This document shows, piece after piece, positions 7,228 to 25,418 of a stretch of 25,418 nt of DNA (the first letter of the stretch is position 1; each line of letters opens with the position of its first letter). Source of the stretch: a virus. Below the pieces are notes generated by a model. The model had not been told where the DNA came from. It searched no databases and saw only the letters and a list, made by a program, of their open reading frames with translations. The translations under genes and the position numbers were made by a program. The stretch spans positions 1 through 25,418 of the IMG/VR virus record IMGVR_UViG_3300047333_000017; one strand, 5' to 3'.

Positions 7228-7484
7228 TTGCGTTCCTTGAAGTACACGCCTTTGCCTGGCTCGATGTCGTCAATCTCAAACGTGCTGCGCCCGCGAACAC
7301 CCTCGTAATCCAGGGCGCATTGAATACTTTCGATCAGCATACGTCGCGAAGCAGTGGGAGACCCGCCGACGTGCATTAACAGGTCAGCAAGGGCCTGGGC
7401 CTCGTCCGCAGTGAGCCGCAATTCAATGAACACCTCCGTCTTGACCGGCTTCGGCGGGATGTGAGTCGTCTTTGCAGTAGCCAT
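7224..7484 (-). CDS. Hypothetical protein
   Basis: 86 residues. After a short Lys/Pro-rich lead (MATAKTTHIPPKPVKTEVFI) comes a strand-helix pattern (IELRLTADEAQALADLLMHV). The second of two adjacent ATGs is chosen because GAGGAG stands 5 bases before it; the first would be too close. The longest frame extends 30 codons upstream through Arg/Leu-rich sequence that belongs to the preceding gene. Function unknown. Confidence 0.7.
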   Translation of the reverse strand: MATAKTTHIPPKPVKTEVFIELRLTADEAQALADLLMHVGGSPTASRRMLIESIQCALDYEGVRGRSTFEIDDIEPGKGVYFKERK

Positions 7485-12641: not shown

Positions 12642-12850
12642 CACAGCACCTCCAGGACGATGTTGTCGCCGTGGCCGGGGTTGACGACGCGCTCGACCTG
12701 GAAGCCAGCGGCCTTCAAGTTCGAGACGTCCAAGTTGGTCAGGGTCTTCTGGCCCTTGAAGATCGCCAGGTGTACGGCCAGGGCGTTGGCCGGGTAGAGT
12801 TTGTCCACCCCGTACACCGACTTCTGTTCGACTTGCACTACGTTTTCCAT
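12641..12850 (-). CDS. Small hypothetical protein behind repeated promoter copy 1
   Basis: 69 residues (MENVVQVEQKSVYGVDKLYP to GHGDNIVLEVL), a compact alpha/beta pattern without membrane segments. GGAGAGATGAG before the ATG is shared almost exactly with the leader of the 13198-13662 gene, so promoter, leader and ribosome-binding site look duplicated as a block. Unknown function; a small, strongly expressed protein is expected. Confidence 0.68.
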   Translation of the reverse strand: MENVVQVEQKSVYGVDKLYPANALAVHLAIFKGQKTLTNLDVSNLKAAGFQVERVVNPGHGDNIVLEVL

Positions 12851-12863
12851 CTCATCTCTCCAA

Positions 12864-12917
12864 TTGGTTGTTCTACTGGGGGCTATATTAGCACACCCAG
12901 TAGAGCTGTCAACGACC
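12864..12917 (-). promoter_or_regulatory. Repeated promoter/operator cassette, copy 1
   Basis: Leftward strand: -35 TTGACA (12907-12912), 16-base spacer, -10 TAATAT (12885-12890). An inverted repeat brackets the -10, with arms TCTACTGGG and CCCAGTAGA (12871-12880 and 12896-12905; the outermost base of one arm is changed in this copy). Start of transcription would be near 12878, 27 bases before the gene. A 52-base core is nearly identical to copies 2 and 3. Confidence 0.8.
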
Positions 12918-13111
12918 TATTTCGGTCCGTCGTTGTGAATTTCGCGCACTTCGACATCGTTGCTGCCGCTAACGTCCATTGCCTGCTCAACCATTGCGCT
13001 CCAAGACTTGTATCCGGCATCCGTAGCGAAAGCCTCTTTTGCGGCGGCGAGCGTAGACCCGGCGTAGTTTCCGAAATCAACCCCGTTAGCAGAAAAGTTG
13101 TACATCGTCAT
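12917..13111 (-). CDS. Small hypothetical protein behind repeated promoter copy 2
   Basis: 64 residues (MTMYNFSANGVDFGNYAGST to DVEVREIHNDGPK), acidic with a helical middle (LAAAKEAFATDAGYKSW). AGGAG lies 8 bases before the first ATG; an ATG two codons later is also possible. Its stop codon is part of the sequence that leads into promoter copy 1. It is the only gene of its unit, as expected for an independent cassette. Function unknown. Confidence 0.68.
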   Translation of the reverse strand: MTMYNFSANGVDFGNYAGSTLAAAKEAFATDAGYKSWSAMVEQAMDVSGSNDVEVREIHNDGPK

Positions 13112-13132
13112 TTTCCTATCTCCTATCTCAGG

Positions 13133-13192
13133 TTGGTTGCTCTACTGGGGGCTATATTAGCACACCCAGTAGAGCTGTCAACGACTATTTTG
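13133..13192 (-). promoter_or_regulatory. Repeated promoter/operator cassette, copy 2
   Basis: Leftward -35 TTGACA (13176-13181), 16-base spacer, -10 TAATAT (13154-13159). The inverted repeat is perfect, with 10-base arms CTCTACTGGG and CCCAGTAGAG (13140-13149 and 13165-13174) flanking the -10. Just upstream, AAAATAGTCGT occurs twice in a row, once spanning the stop codon of the preceding gene. Confidence 0.82.
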
Positions 13193-13197
13193 GACGA

Positions 13198-13662
13198 CTA
13201 TTTTGTGATGACTGCCTCGACAATTTCACCGCCCTGGGTGCGGCTGGCCAGCTTCATTGCCAGATCCAGGCGGCTGCACCACCCCTGACTCCATACCAGG
13301 TACTGACCGTCTTCGGTCTTCCAGGCGTCCGCGTTGCCGGCATCGTGCTCTGCCAGGCGCACAGCAACGTACCCCTCCTCACCGCCCTCCAGCTCTGCCT
13401 TGGCTCTGGCAATGCGCTCCGGGGTGACGTCGTAGATGCACGGGGAGCCGTCTCGGAAGGTACTGTAGATCTTGCCGTCGCTGGCGGCCAGCAGCTTGGT
13501 ATAGTCCAGGTCCATGCGCCACTTGGAGCGGGCCTGCTTTTCGGCGTCCTTGCGCGCTTCTGAGACCAGCTTTTTGCCGATCACCATGTGCGTGTATACC
13601 TTGTTCTGGCTGCTGCGAGTCCAGGTGTGGCCATGTGCGGTTGCGGTGTGCTTGGTGTTCAT
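13198..13662 (-). CDS. Hypothetical protein behind repeated promoter copy 3
   Basis: 154 residues. The N-terminal half is basic (HGHTWTRSSQNKVYTHMVIG, SEARKDAEKQARSKWRMDLD); the C-terminal half is mixed, with WCSRLDLAMKLASRTQGGE. GGAGAGATGAG precedes the ATG. The repetitive strand pattern and His/Trp at the start do not match a family I know. It stands alone between promoter copies 3 and 2. Confidence 0.7.
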   Translation of the reverse strand: MNTKHTATAHGHTWTRSSQNKVYTHMVIGKKLVSEARKDAEKQARSKWRMDLDYTKLLAASDGKIYSTFRDGSPCIYDVTPERIARAKAELEGGEEGYVAVRLAEHDAGNADAWKTEDGQYLVWSQGWCSRLDLAMKLASRTQGGEIVEAVITK

Positions 13663-13675
13663 CTCATCTCTCCAG

Positions 13676-13736
13676 TTGGTTGCTCTACTGGGGGCTATAT
13701 TAGCACACCCAGTAGAGCTGTCAACGACTATTTTGA
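13676..13736 (-). promoter_or_regulatory. Repeated promoter/operator cassette, copy 3
   Basis: Leftward -35 TTGACA (13719-13724), 16-base spacer, -10 TAATAT (13697-13702), with perfect 10-base inverted repeat arms at 13683-13692 and 13708-13717. The leader to the ATG (AACCAACTGGAGAGATGAG) differs from copy 1 by a single base. Confidence 0.82.
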
Positions 13737-21262: not shown

Positions 21263-21458
21263 TCGCCCATCGCCTCACTATGTTGTCGAGCCTCTTCGCA
21301 ACTGGTTCGACTTGCAGCTCCGCTAAAAGTTCATTCCGCTTGCGCAATTCTTTTGCTTGCCCGGTTCTCTTGCGCTGGCTGGTGAGCGTCGTCGGGATAT
21401 ACAGCTCGCCCTCCTTGCGTAAAATGCTGGCGAAGTGCCCACGTACCCGGTCACTCAT
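21234..21458 (-). CDS. Small basic hypothetical protein
   Basis: 74 residues beginning MSDRVRGHFASILRKEGELY, with a long basic helix (SQRKRTGQAKELRKRNELLA) and VRRWANVRNHGPDQ at the end. AGGAG lies about 8 bases before the ATG, which overlaps the upstream gene by 8 bases. Basic charge suggests nucleic-acid binding. Unknown. Confidence 0.62.
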   Translation of the reverse strand: MSDRVRGHFASILRKEGELYIPTTLTSQRKRTGQAKELRKRNELLAELQVEPVAKRLDNIVRRWANVRNHGPDQ

Positions 21459-21984
21459 CAGCCAGCTCCTGTGCCTGCACGTCAACCTCGTTCATGCTCT
21501 GGTAGATCCGTAGCCCGTCGATGCCCTCCGGGAAATTCTCCCGGCGCGCCACGAATATGCTGATCCCTGCCTCTGAGCACATCCGTATCTTAGCACGCAG
21601 TTTTGCGCTGCGCCATGCGTTCTTGATGCCCTTCAGATCCTGCGCACGCTCGCCCTCCGGGTCTAAGGATCCCTTGGCCTTGACACGCTTCGCGAACATG
21701 TCAGCCATCCGGAGCGCCTTCTCGCAGCTCTCATGCACCAGGACGTAGAACCGGCTCGTGTACACGTCGTCCGAAAAGTGGCACACCTGGATCAGGTGGC
21801 TCTGATCCGAGGGAACAGAGTCCAGGAGATGGGCCTTGATGTAGTCGTGGTTGGCGCGCTCCGTGGGTCCGCACCGGAGCAGTCTCCAGCTGGCGACGTA
21901 GTACCCGTCGAAGTTCTCCCCGAGGTAGTTCACGGTCTCGTACCAGCGGGGAATGTGCTGAGGGACGTAGGGTTTTTTGGTCAT
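21451..21984 (-). CDS. Hypothetical protein, first gene of the leftward operon
   Basis: 177 residues: MTKKPYVPQHIPRWYETVNY, RYYVASWRLLRCGPTERANH-like central sequence, then a helical C-terminal half (CEKALRMADMFAKRVKAKGS). I do not recognise the family. No SD precedes the ATG. An ECF-sigma-like promoter motif (21991-22018) would start transcription within a few bases of it, so the message may be leaderless. Confidence 0.65.
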   Translation of the reverse strand: MTKKPYVPQHIPRWYETVNYLGENFDGYYVASWRLLRCGPTERANHDYIKAHLLDSVPSDQSHLIQVCHFSDDVYTSRFYVLVHESCEKALRMADMFAKRVKAKGSLDPEGERAQDLKGIKNAWRSAKLRAKIRMCSEAGISIFVARRENFPEGIDGLRIYQSMNEVDVQAQELADE

Positions 21985-21990
21985 CAGTAC

Positions 21991-22018
21991 TTGGATTGAA
22001 TTTGCTAAATAAAGTTCC
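21991..22018 (-). promoter_or_regulatory. ECF/sigmaE-like promoter before the leftward operon
   Basis: Leftward GGAACTT (22012-22018), 16 bases, then TCCAA (21991-21995). SigmaE-type promoters use GGAACTT-N16-TCTRA-like elements. The predicted transcription start falls at about 21985, next to the ATG of a gene lacking an SD. The same motif precedes the zinc-finger gene at 23192-23503. Confidence 0.45.
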
Positions 22019-22028
22019 CGACAGGAAC
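22014..22028. promoter_or_regulatory. Inverted repeat at the divergent junction
   Basis: GTTCC-CGACA-GGAAC, a perfect 5-base-arm palindrome, lies between the leftward operon and the rightward pair. It overlaps the ECF-like -35 and gives a GGAAC in each direction. It may be an operator. The remaining intergenic sequence (to 22191) shows no confident rightward sigma70 promoter. Confidence 0.4.
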
Positions 22029-22191: not shown

Positions 22192-22410
22192 ATGAGCTGG
22201 AAGATCGAGGTGATGCTGACGACGGAGCCGGGGTGGCACAGCAACGCCCTGCGGTTCCCTACCGAGGAGGAGGCCTCGGAGTGGGCCGCGGACTTGTTCA
22301 TGCGCTGGATGCTGGTCAAGCAGACCCGCGTCCGCGAGGTACCGGAACCGGCGCTGAATCGGATGCTTGGAGGAAAGGTAACTTTTATCAACACAGGAGA
22401 TGAGACATGA
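22192..22410 (+). CDS. Small phage hypothetical protein
   Basis: 72 residues: MSWKIEVMLTTEPGWHSNAL, RFPTEEEASEWAADLFMRWM, ending LGGKVTFINTGDET. The order W.......W..N.LRF.T..EA..+...L..RW is a common phage pattern of unknown role, a small alpha/beta fold. The SD is strong (AAAGGAGGGAGG). The stop overlaps the next ATG by ATGA. It starts the short rightward unit. Confidence 0.78.
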   Translation: MSWKIEVMLTTEPGWHSNALRFPTEEEASEWAADLFMRWMLVKQTRVREVPEPALNRMLGGKVTFINTGDET

Positions 22411-23159
22411 GTGCAGTAATTGACGAGAAGATGGTGGAGAGTGTGGTCGATGGGCTGGAGGGTCGGGGGTACGTGGCCTCGGAGAAGGACATCGAGATGA
22501 TTGCCTTGGAGTCGGTCCACGTCTCGCACGCAGGTAACGGGGTGCGGCAGACCTACCTGCGGGCGCTGGTCGCCAGCACCAAGGCCGCGCTGGGGATGGC
22601 GGACAGCCGCCGCCGCCGGGTGCCGACGGAGATGAGTCCCGAGGAGATGACCCGGCAGCTGGAGGCCCTGGAGACGACGCACGCCAGGTTCTACGAGGTG
22701 ATCCAGAAGACGGTCGAGAAAGTCCCCATCCGGGAGGACGAGCGTGGCCGGGAACGTGCGGCGATCTTCAACGCCCGATGCACCTTCGCCCGCACCTCGA
22801 AGAGCACGCTCCGGTCCTGGATCAGCTCCGGGAACAACCTCGCCGGTTTGGTCCCGGCGAAGGTGACGAAGTACGCCCTCGCTGCGGAGGTATCCAAAAG
22901 CCGCTCCCCGGCACAGGCCAGGGCACCTAGCGAGCGTTATCTTCACGGGGTCGCTGCGAAGATACTTGCACGGGTCCAGGCCGCAAAAGACCAGTCGGCC
23001 AAGATCCGCCTCATCGAGACCGTACTCCACGACCTCGTCACCGGCCTCAGTGAGCTGGGAGTAGAGATCACGGACGACATCGAGGAGGCCATGGAGAGCA
23101 GCAAGCTGCTTCAAACCCAAACCGGCATCGTCTGGCTGGGGCGGAAGCAGGCCGCGTAA
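22407..23159 (+). CDS. Hypothetical protein
   Basis: 250 residues, mostly helical (ESVVDGLEGRGYVASEKDIE, QLEALETTHARFYEVIQKTV), basic and Ala-rich in the second half, ending IVWLGRKQAA. The antisense 349-codon frame is rejected because this frame has a coupled ATGA start, AGGAG upstream and natural composition. No domain recognised. It meets the zinc-finger gene tail to tail. Confidence 0.72.
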   Translation: MSAVIDEKMVESVVDGLEGRGYVASEKDIEMIALESVHVSHAGNGVRQTYLRALVASTKAALGMADSRRRRVPTEMSPEEMTRQLEALETTHARFYEVIQKTVEKVPIREDERGRERAAIFNARCTFARTSKSTLRSWISSGNNLAGLVPAKVTKYALAAEVSKSRSPAQARAPSERYLHGVAAKILARVQAAKDQSAKIRLIETVLHDLVTGLSELGVEITDDIEEAMESSKLLQTQTGIVWLGRKQAA

Positions 23160-23166
23160 GCTGAAC

Positions 23167-23187
23167 GGCGGGGACCGCAAACCCGCC
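23167..23187. terminator. Hairpin between convergent genes
   Basis: GGCGGG (23167-23172) pairs with CCCGCC (23182-23187) across a 9-base loop, between stops that face each other at 23159 and 23192. No U-tract follows on either strand, so termination is uncertain. Confidence 0.35.
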
Positions 23188-23191
23188 ACCC

Positions 23192-23503
23192 CTACCAGGG
23201 TGTGCCTTTGCCGTCCCACTCAGGCAGCGAACGATCCGTAGCAGGGAACTTTTTGGTGACCTCGGTGCGGAACTTGTTGGGCGGTTTTTTCCCGCGCTTT
23301 TGCGGCTCGTGCTTGGCCAGGAACTCAGCGACGGCGATCTCGTGCTCCGCAAACTGCCGCACCCGTTTTTGCTGCTCTCGAACCTCTGGCGGGATGATCA
23401 CGCAAGTCAGTGCGTGCTTGGTGAAGTCCATATTGGCCGGTAACCATCGAGGGCCAACCTGAATCCACTGTATTTCCTGCCCGCAGTGCTTACATTTGCT
23501 CAT
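23192..23503 (-). CDS. Zinc-finger protein encoded opposite to its neighbours
   Basis: 103 residues: MSKCKHCGQEIQWIQVGPRW with the CxxC pair, then H and C (TKHALTC) completing a probable zinc site. The rest is basic (RTEVTKKFPATDRSLPEW). No SD precedes the ATG. The ECF-like GGAACTT-N16-TCTAC motif ends 5 bases before it, so it may also be leaderless. It is the only leftward gene among rightward ones. A regulator or nucleic-acid-binding protein is plausible. Confidence 0.65.
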   Translation of the reverse strand: MSKCKHCGQEIQWIQVGPRWLPANMDFTKHALTCVIIPPEVREQQKRVRQFAEHEIAVAEFLAKHEPQKRGKKPPNKFRTEVTKKFPATDRSLPEWDGKGTPW

Positions 23504-23508
23504 GCTTG

Positions 23509-23536
23509 GTAGACTGTGCAGCCTGCATAAAGTTCC
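23509..23536 (-). promoter_or_regulatory. ECF/sigmaE-like promoter before the zinc-finger gene
   Basis: Leftward GGAACTT (23530-23536), 16 bases, TCTAC (23509-23513). The surrounding CCTGnnGGGAACTTTAT is identical at 15 of 17 bases to the one at 22009-22025. The predicted start lies at the ATG. Confidence 0.45.
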
Positions 23537-23545
23537 CACCAGGGG

Positions 23546-23952
23546 GTAGATCTACGGGAAAGGAACCCCTAACCCATTCGCTAGGGTAAGCGAACGGGGC
23601 CAGATTGGCTCCTTTCCAACGACGCTTAATCAGCCTCAGGGAGTGAGTCTTTTCGCGACGAGGTTCCTAGCATTTAAATTACCAGCCGCTAGGATTTCAA
23701 CCAAGGTCAGCCCACTTGCGCGACAGGGGGACACCGGTATGGTCTTTTTTTGGACGGCAATCAACGCCTACTCCAAGGAAAACCATACCTAACCGGAAGT
23801 CCCTTTCGGGGCCGGGTTGAGTAATCCGCATGCTACTGCGCCCGCGTCAGCCAACCAGGAGGGTTTGCACCTCCCACTGGGGCAGATATTTACGTCCGTA
23901 GCCAGGGACAGAGAAATCGTCTCGACGTTGGAACTAAGTTGAAAGGTTAGTT
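23546..23952 (+). ncRNA. Candidate structured RNA, unidentified class
   Basis: About 400 nt with no convincing gene but at least six stems. (1) GGAAAGGA/TCCTTTCC (23557-23564, 23610-23617) closes a three-way junction with CCCC/GGGG plus TTCGCT-agggta-AGCGAA and GCCA/TGGC. (2) TCCTAGC/GCTAGGA (23665-23671, 23688-23694). (3) A 17-bp helix, 23736-23753 with 23773-23789, one bulge and two G-U pairs. (4) GTCCC-tttc-GGGGC (23799-23812). (5) CCAGGAGG/CCTCC..TGG (23855-23880). (6) AACTAA/TTAGTT (23932-23952). The G-U pairs in (3) and (4) exist only if the rightward strand is transcribed. It precedes the replication genes. It is not a tRNA or any riboswitch I recognise; it could also be a replication origin. 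Confidence 0.5.
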
Positions 23953-23958
23953 GTCTAG
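23931..23958 (+). promoter_or_regulatory. Possible ECF-like promoter before the replication genes
   Basis: Rightward GGAACTA-like sequence (from 23930), 17 bases, then TCTAG (23954-23958), ending 9 bases before an ATG with only a weak AAGG. It resembles the two leftward ECF-like sites but with one -35 change and one extra spacer base. Confidence 0.3.
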
Positions 23959-23967
23959 GCTAAGGCA

Positions 23968-24420
23968 ATGGATAACGAAAAAAGTTCCCAGCTCAACAAA
24001 ACTGCGTTCGACGCCTGGGTGGCGTACCGGGCTGACAGCAAGCACGGCCCTCTGACTGAGGCAGGCAAGAAGCGCGTCGCCAAGCGACTGGAGCGCCTTG
24101 GGTCGGCCCAGGAGTCATCAGTTTACCACAGCATCGCCAGCGGTTATCAGGGTGTGTACCCGCCGCAGGGCACATTACCCGAATTGGAGGCGAAGGAGAT
24201 GGCAGAAGATGACAGCCGTTTGGCCGAAGTTCTCAGACAATGGGGGCAAATTCACCGAGTTACCGTGACACCGAATCTTGTCAAGGCGTACCGGGAAGCG
24301 CTCAAGGGTCTGTCGCATGAGGAATTTGAGAGATCTGTGAGCTACCTCACAAAACACAGCCAGTGGTTCGCAAAACCATCGGAAATTTGGCGTGCCGCGA
24401 AGACGGAGGGCTGGCTGTGA
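23968..24420 (+). CDS. Replication-associated, helicase-loader-like protein
   Basis: 150 residues in two parts. At 8-68, TAFDAWVAYRADSKHGPLTE, KKRVAKRLERLGSAQESSVY and SIASGYQGVYPP resemble the WxxY+...L...Q...+++SI..G+.G+YPP segment of phage replication-initiation and helicase-loader proteins. At 103-148, LVKAYREALKGLSHEEFERS and KHSQWFAKPSEIW resemble loader helices (YxxAL...+.EF..+V..+....WFP+..EI). The helicase gene lies two genes downstream, which supports a loader. The ATG has only a weak AAGG close by. Confidence 0.6.
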   Translation: MDNEKSSQLNKTAFDAWVAYRADSKHGPLTEAGKKRVAKRLERLGSAQESSVYHSIASGYQGVYPPQGTLPELEAKEMAEDDSRLAEVLRQWGQIHRVTVTPNLVKAYREALKGLSHEEFERSVSYLTKHSQWFAKPSEIWRAAKTEGWL

Positions 24421-24785
24421 AGTACCTAGTAACCCCCGAAGGGCACTGGCTCTGGATGGGCGGCAGGACCGGCGGTCACCCAGCGTTCAAGGTCAACGGC
24501 AAGGTCGTGATGGCTCGACGGTACTACTGGGCGCAGAAGCACGGCAAGGAACCTCTGGCGCGGCTGGATGTCAAATGCGGTGACAGAAACTGCGTGAACC
24601 CGGAGCACTGCCGGGAGCACAAGAACAAGCCGGTGCGCAAGGTGCGGCTGTCGCACGCCGAGCGTCGCAGGCAGCACCAGGAGATCATTATGCTCAGGGG
24701 TTGCGAGAAACGGGAAGTCATCGCCCACATGTACGGCATGGCGCCAGACACGATCAGCCACATCTGGTCCCCGAGTAACTGGTAG
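24417..24785 (+). CDS. HNH-like zinc protein with C-terminal HTH, probably inactive nuclease
   Basis: 122 residues. HWLWMGGRTGGHPAFKVNGK, ARRYYWAQKHGK and VKCGDRNCVNPEHC follow the HNH_3 layout (WxW.G..., H+.+Y......, V.HxC.N..CVNPxH). The first catalytic His is replaced by Val and the Asn by Asp, while the zinc cysteines and the last His remain. The C-terminal 45 residues (RRRQHQEIIMLRGCEKREVI, MYGMAPDTISHIW) read as an HTH. It may be a DNA-binding relic of a homing-type enzyme. GTG start in a GTGA overlap with GGAGG upstream. Confidence 0.68.
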   Translation: MKYLVTPEGHWLWMGGRTGGHPAFKVNGKVVMARRYYWAQKHGKEPLARLDVKCGDRNCVNPEHCREHKNKPVRKVRLSHAERRRQHQEIIMLRGCEKREVIAHMYGMAPDTISHIWSPSNW

Positions 24786-24791
24786 GTGGGG

Positions 24792-25418
24792 ATGCTAGAC
24801 GACCTGGGGCCTGACAGCACGCCCCTGGAGCGCCAGGAAGCCATCAAGCGCATCCGCGCCAAGATGATGGTCACTTCAACCATGGGCGACGACGACGACG
24901 AGCCGGAGAAGATCTTCGTGGACTTCGCGCAGATGTCCCCTGAGCAGATGCTGGCCGATTACAACCAGTTCCTGGACAACTACGACACCGTACCCTTCGA
25001 CCCGGAGGGGAAGTACATCCGGCTCTACCGTGGGCAGTGGAGCATCATCAGCGGCTTCCCTGGGGCCGGTAAGACGACCATGCTACGGCAGCTCGTGGCG
25101 CACCTGCTGAGCAACGGGAACGGGGTCTTCGTGTTCTCCGGGGAGGACGACCCGAGCCACTACCTGATCGAGCTGACCGCCACCGCGTTCGGGGTGCTTA
25201 CGCCGACCGCCGAGCAGATCGGGGCCTTCATCGAGTACTTCGGGGACAAGCTCTACATCTGGGGCACGGTATCGGTCGTAGACCACAAGAAGATCCTGGC
25301 GACGATCAGCCACCTGGCGAAGCATGGCAAGATCCAGCATGCTATAATCGACTCGCTGACGACGACCGACATCAGGATGGACGACTATGAGACGCAGCGT
25401 CAGTTCGCGAACCACATA
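24792..25418 (+). CDS. Replicative helicase (DnaB/RecA fold), cut by the window end
   Basis: The first 209 residues are visible. After about 80 residues (RIRAKMMVTSTMGDDDDEPE) comes the ATPase core: SIISGFPGAGKTTMLRQL with Walker A at 88-96, GVFVFSGEDDPSHY at 111-124 and IQHAIIDSLTTTDIRMDDYE at 181-200 with the Walker B Asp, the order seen in DnaB/Twinkle-type hexameric helicases (E/N-terminal part reduced). AGG lies 5 bases before the ATG and 6 bases after the preceding stop. The gene runs off the edge, so length and C-terminus are unknown. Confidence 0.8.
   Translation, partial: MLDDLGPDSTPLERQEAIKRIRAKMMVTSTMGDDDDEPEKIFVDFAQMSPEQMLADYNQFLDNYDTVPFDPEGKYIRLYRGQWSIISGFPGAGKTTMLRQLVAHLLSNGNGVFVFSGEDDPSHYLIELTATAFGVLTPTAEQIGAFIEYFGDKLYIWGTVSVVDHKKILATISHLAKHGKIQHAIIDSLTTTDIRMDDYETQRQFANHI

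Follow-up and report, generated by a model that had tools for sequence, protein, structure and literature searches.

Does the longest gap between genes in an uncultured phage record encode one large structured RNA, mark a replication origin, or control the genes on either side? The window, which is the whole stretch of DNA analysed, is a 25.4-kb IMG/VR virus record. A first-pass annotation had described a non-coding block in it, folded into at least six stems and lying before the replication genes. The gap spans 428 nt (23540-23967) and is the longest in the gene map, followed by gaps of 295 and 207 nt. As the annotation held, it contains no convincing gene, and the frames within it have no meaningful match to a protein family. 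The 49-codon frame 23643-23792 was rejected as a small protein: it has no family match, and its GGAG and GTG start overlap. A group I intron or split gene was also rejected, since the start of the loader gene matches the start in relatives and Rfam is silent.

The genes that flank the gap are in divergent order. Packaging genes and many small genes are leftward in the window, and a loader-like gene, an HNH endonuclease and a DnaB-like helicase are rightward. On the left side of the gap, a leftward gene (23195..23503) encodes a short, Cys-containing, zinc-ribbon-like protein that starts MSKCKHC and has no family match; a clear ribosome-binding site was not found for it. On the right side, the helicase-loader-like gene (23968..24420, phrog_678, replication initiation O-like) is followed by the HNH endonuclease (24417-24785) and the DnaB-like replicative helicase (24792..25418), which is cut by the contig end. 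The placement of the block upstream of loader and helicase genes is therefore as first described.

Against dinucleotide shuffles, the whole block folds better than chance on both strands (z -2.83 rightward and -3.28 leftward), so the block as a whole does not reveal the strand. For comparison, background windows have a mean z of -0.07, a standard deviation of 1.24 and a first percentile of -3.5. The excess is not evenly spread. The 200-nt windows that start at 23600 and 23640 fold better rightward (z -3.8 and -3.0, vs -1.1 and -2.0 leftward), and for starts at 23480 and 23520 the leftward strand is the stronger (z -2.6 and -2.3). Windows starting from 23760 to 24000 are near shuffle level, and the segment 23760-23967 is at shuffle level on either strand.

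Most of the stems listed by the first-pass annotation do not rise above chance. For arms of 6 bp, the number of perfect inverted repeats is at chance level (6 vs 4.7 expected, p 0.34); those with 7-bp arms number 3 (1.2 expected, p 0.12). Only the 8-bp class is above chance, with 2 repeats where 0.3 are expected (p 0.03). The individual stems are nonetheless present in the sequence: the 8-bp pair GGAAAGGA/TCCTTTCC, the 7-bp pair TCCTAGC/GCTAGGA and the long stem 23736-23789. Two elements exceed chance, and they prefer opposite strands.

The left element (23557..23617) is the strongest local fold of the block and lies on the leftward strand, where the leftward gene is predicted to have its leader. 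Read leftward, it forms a nearly continuous 26-pair hairpin that includes five G-U pairs (-39.1 kcal/mol, z -6.36). Read rightward, it is poorer (-28.2 kcal/mol, z -3.0) because the five leftward G-U pairs become A-C. The three-way junction with an 8-bp closing stem, proposed earlier, is this poorer, rightward reading of the long leftward hairpin. At a window size of 65 nt, the leftward hairpin ranks first among the 10142 windows of the window and first among 70416 when five relatives are included (282 kb in total). At 50 or 80 nt other elements outrank it, so hairpins this strong are not unique.

The right element (23697..23820) lies on the rightward strand in the predicted rightward leader and consists of three hairpins closed by UCAACC/GGUUGA and GGUC/GGCC. 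Its main stem, 23736-23789, has 18 pairs (8 and 10 bp around one bulge), two of them G-U. The element as a whole folds to -53.7 kcal/mol rightward and -49.5 leftward (z -3.24). The rightward z of -5.02 is inflated, as the module ends were chosen from the fold; its strength is more fairly judged by the unbiased rank, 9 of 6324 windows. The rightward strand, which had been argued from G-U pairs, thus holds for the right module, fails for the left module and is not confirmed for the whole block. An attenuator through the seven-U run is not borne out. The run sits in the 5' arm of the stem rather than downstream of one, and the single terminator-like match is on the other strand from this run, at chance frequency.

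Between the two elements, the middle stem (23665-23694) is better read, from its sequence, as a putative DNA promoter-operator dyad than as an RNA stem. On the leftward strand, TTGAAA (23700-23695) is followed by the dyad TCCTAGC-N16-GCTAGGA (23694-23665), with TTAAAT in its loop at 17-nt spacing. The same order of -35, arm, -10 and arm is found at three other promoters in the window, at position 7380 of the sister contig G001 and at the leftward promoter of the relative L228 (record G027). In the homologous gap of L228, both dyad arms differ in letters and their complementarity is kept; in that of L227, the promoter is present and the dyad is absent. The layout is found at 8 of 116 promoter-like sites, three of which are copies of one repeat, and its chance rate is about 2% of such sites by our own estimate. 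The block thus contains a sigma-70-type promoter match with a dyad across it, and its position is conserved among relatives. The predicted leftward promoter-operator (23665..23700) ranks 19th in the promoter scan. A predicted rightward promoter, TTGGTA-N16-TAAAGT (23506..23533), has 8 of 12 consensus bases, with a start expected near 23540; it ranks 14th among all window positions in a sigma-70 weight scan and is below the threshold of a simple scan. Both are weak consensus matches.

The three other promoters of the window lie in near-identical 75-nt modules on the leftward strand (12849-12923, 13118-13192 and 13661-13735), each before a leftward gene. Each module has TTGACA-N16-TAATAT within the dyad CTCTACTGGG..CCCAGTAGAG, and these are the best promoter matches of the window. 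In the sister contig, the layout (L091, 7380-7425, rightward) has other dyad letters. Such variation between the sister contig and the window is what would be expected of operators changing along with their repressor.

Taken together, there is roughly an even chance that the block is an early control region with two transcripts, one leftward and one rightward, both having a structured leader. Two face-to-face promoters would lie across it, the leftward one at about 23700-23672, overlapped by the operator dyad, and the rightward one at about 23506-23533. Transcription to the left would begin near 23665, which puts the 26-bp hairpin (23617-23557) in the zinc-ribbon-like gene's leader. Transcription to the right would begin near 23540 and give a leader of about 428 nt, in which the three-hairpin junction (23697-23820) precedes the loader and helicase genes. 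Most likely each folded leader acts in cis on the mRNA that carries it, through read-through, stability or translation. Transcription and these start sites are inferred, as is a regulator, either a repressor or one of another kind, that would bind 23665-23694. Of the functions first suggested, a regulatory leader remains the likeliest. The region is real and mildly unusual; its likeliest identity is a divergent control region of an ordinary kind whose leaders are structured. It gives a concrete candidate control region for an uncultured phage group. It also illustrates that stems which look like one cluster when a single strand is read can be of three kinds: a leader hairpin belonging to the opposite strand, a promoter-operator, and the leader of the rightward transcript.

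Divergent early promoter-operator regions of phages in general, lambda-like ones for example, have divergent genes, promoters overlapped by a dyad and replication genes downstream on one side. The block resembles them in all three features. It differs in that a repressor or cro-like gene is not recognised beside it and in that the dyad flanks the -10 box of a moderate-score TTGAAA promoter. In placement its folds also resemble those of phage HK022, in which structured leader elements lie near divergent early promoters: putL is just downstream of PL and putR about 270 nt downstream of PR (PMC9378689). Here the leftward hairpin would begin about 48 nt and the rightward fold about 157 nt after the predicted starts. 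The put antiterminator RNAs suppress termination by host RNA polymerase and are about 70 nt long with two stem-loops, and the left and right copies are alike (PMC9378689). The block instead has one 61-nt hairpin and one 124-nt three-hairpin junction, and these are dissimilar by local alignment in all strand combinations (p 0.36-1.0). The two modules as put-like copies are rejected for this lack of sequence similarity.

By terminase, the closest cultured relatives are Caulobacter phages at about 42% identity. Terminase relatives also include the sister contig (terminase 97%), which ends about 2.7 kb before the block. Scans with single proteins gave no matches, and no helicase relatives were found in bacterial genomes. 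Helicase alignments reached the relatives L146, L227, L228 and L229/L230. The gene order on the left side is common to L146 (terminase 61% identical), L227, L228 and L230, with loader and helicase on the right. In all four, the homologue of the leftward gene 21451-21984 directly faces the loader across a non-coding gap of 403 nt (L146), about 305 nt (L227), about 263 nt (L228) or about 284 nt (L230). Inside this gap lies a leftward promoter-like site that scores highest in L227 and in L228 and second highest in L230. Gap position and a predicted leftward promoter are conserved. Short inverted repeats are in excess in the gaps of L146 and L230 and are not in excess in those of L227 and L228, which means that structured leaders are not common to these phages. 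Alignment of the block with the L146 gap is significant (p <0.001) only with very permissive gaps, and p ranges from 0.087 to 0.70 with stricter ones.

The alternative that survives best, although it is unlikely, is that the gap is a replication origin in which the inverted repeats act as DNA, either as initiator sites or as single-strand primase hairpins, with the loader gene adjoining. The position of the block before the loader and helicase genes is consistent with this. The cumulative GC-skew minimum also lies about 50-115 bases from the homologous gap in G026 and G024. However, it lies elsewhere in G027, G029 and the window, and divergent transcription alone yields such a minimum. The homologous gap of L230 (3287-3317) contains three tandem, iteron-like copies of GTATGCTGGG. 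In the window, the block has no iterons or DnaA boxes, and its GC content is 0.54 vs 0.60, which is not AT-rich; the direct repeats or DnaA boxes with an AT-rich stretch that mark iteron- or DnaA-type origins are thus not found in it. In addition, the strand-specific G-U pairs favour RNA over DNA for the two main folds. The origin-associated RNA or primer suggested by the first-pass annotation likewise has no positive evidence.

A single rightward structured RNA of about 400 nt, serving as a primer, an origin RNA or a trans-acting RNA, is very improbable. The rightward z of the whole block and of the 200-nt windows at 23600 and 23640 argues for it. A long-range inverted repeat, TTCCAACGACG/CGACGTTGGAA, pairs 23614-23624 with 23923-23933 at 10 of 11 positions, 298 nt apart; such pairing could enclose the right module in a large domain, and it competes with the local folds. 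Against a single RNA, the left third of the block folds better leftward, the minus strand is overall as foldable as the plus strand, the significant folds are on opposite strands, the third stem is promoter-operator-like, and the 3' part (23760-23967) is at shuffle level. Blastn, nhmmer, covariance model and pattern searches also found no homologue. A structured phage RNA of 400 nt would imply comparison with large ornate phage RNAs of the GOLLD/ROOL type (PMC12286853). The block differs from these: it has no Rfam match, it is not conserved between phages, and its two modules are short and lie on opposite strands.

Antisense RNAs repress through stem-loops in plasmid copy control, and there is a slim chance that a leftward RNA stem-loop represses the loader here, antisense to the first approximately 125 nt of the rightward leader: the predicted starts at 23540 (rightward) and 23665 (leftward) would give a head-to-head overlap of about 125 nt with the strongest hairpin inside it, but the overlap depends on two weak promoter predictions and no terminator follows the hairpin to yield a short leftward RNA. 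It is just as doubtful that two overlapping, opposed structured RNAs, with folds of an undescribed class, form a sense-antisense switch that sets the helicase-loader level and replication timing.

Homologues of the folds were sought by several routes. None of the Rfam 15 covariance models matches at gathering score and only one chance match appears at E 10, so that, as first claimed, no named class fits the block. At E 10, a blastn search of phages and plasmids with the block gives only matches of chance length, and nhmmer over the fetched loci finds no homologue. Covariance models R1 (right module) and R2 (left module), each resting on one sequence, recover no homologue, and gapped helix patterns have no match in IMG/VR. 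A match of G013/G014 to 23700-23720 is inside a coding gene and was rejected as chance. The missing homologues are weak evidence, because single-sequence models have a short reach and the near relatives do not cover the block.

Where the four syntenic relatives have a single divergent gap, the window has three more genes (22192-23503, two rightward and one leftward), an apparent insertion beside the loader. In L146, a CHC2-type zinc-finger primase-like gene takes the place of the HNH endonuclease (24417-24785). The window gaps of 207 and 428 nt flank these three genes, and their edges share a 40-bp stretch (p 0.023) with the motif ATAAAGTTCCC, which is present on the rightward strand at 23527..23537 and in a second copy at 22009-22019. 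Its core, AAAGTTCCC, is found four times, at 22011, 23529 and 23981 rightward and at 23244 leftward. All copies lie between 22011 and 23989, within 2 kb around the replication-side gaps, and the core is a possible regulator site. The copy at about 22011-22014 is part of the perfect dyad GTTCC-N5-GGAAC.
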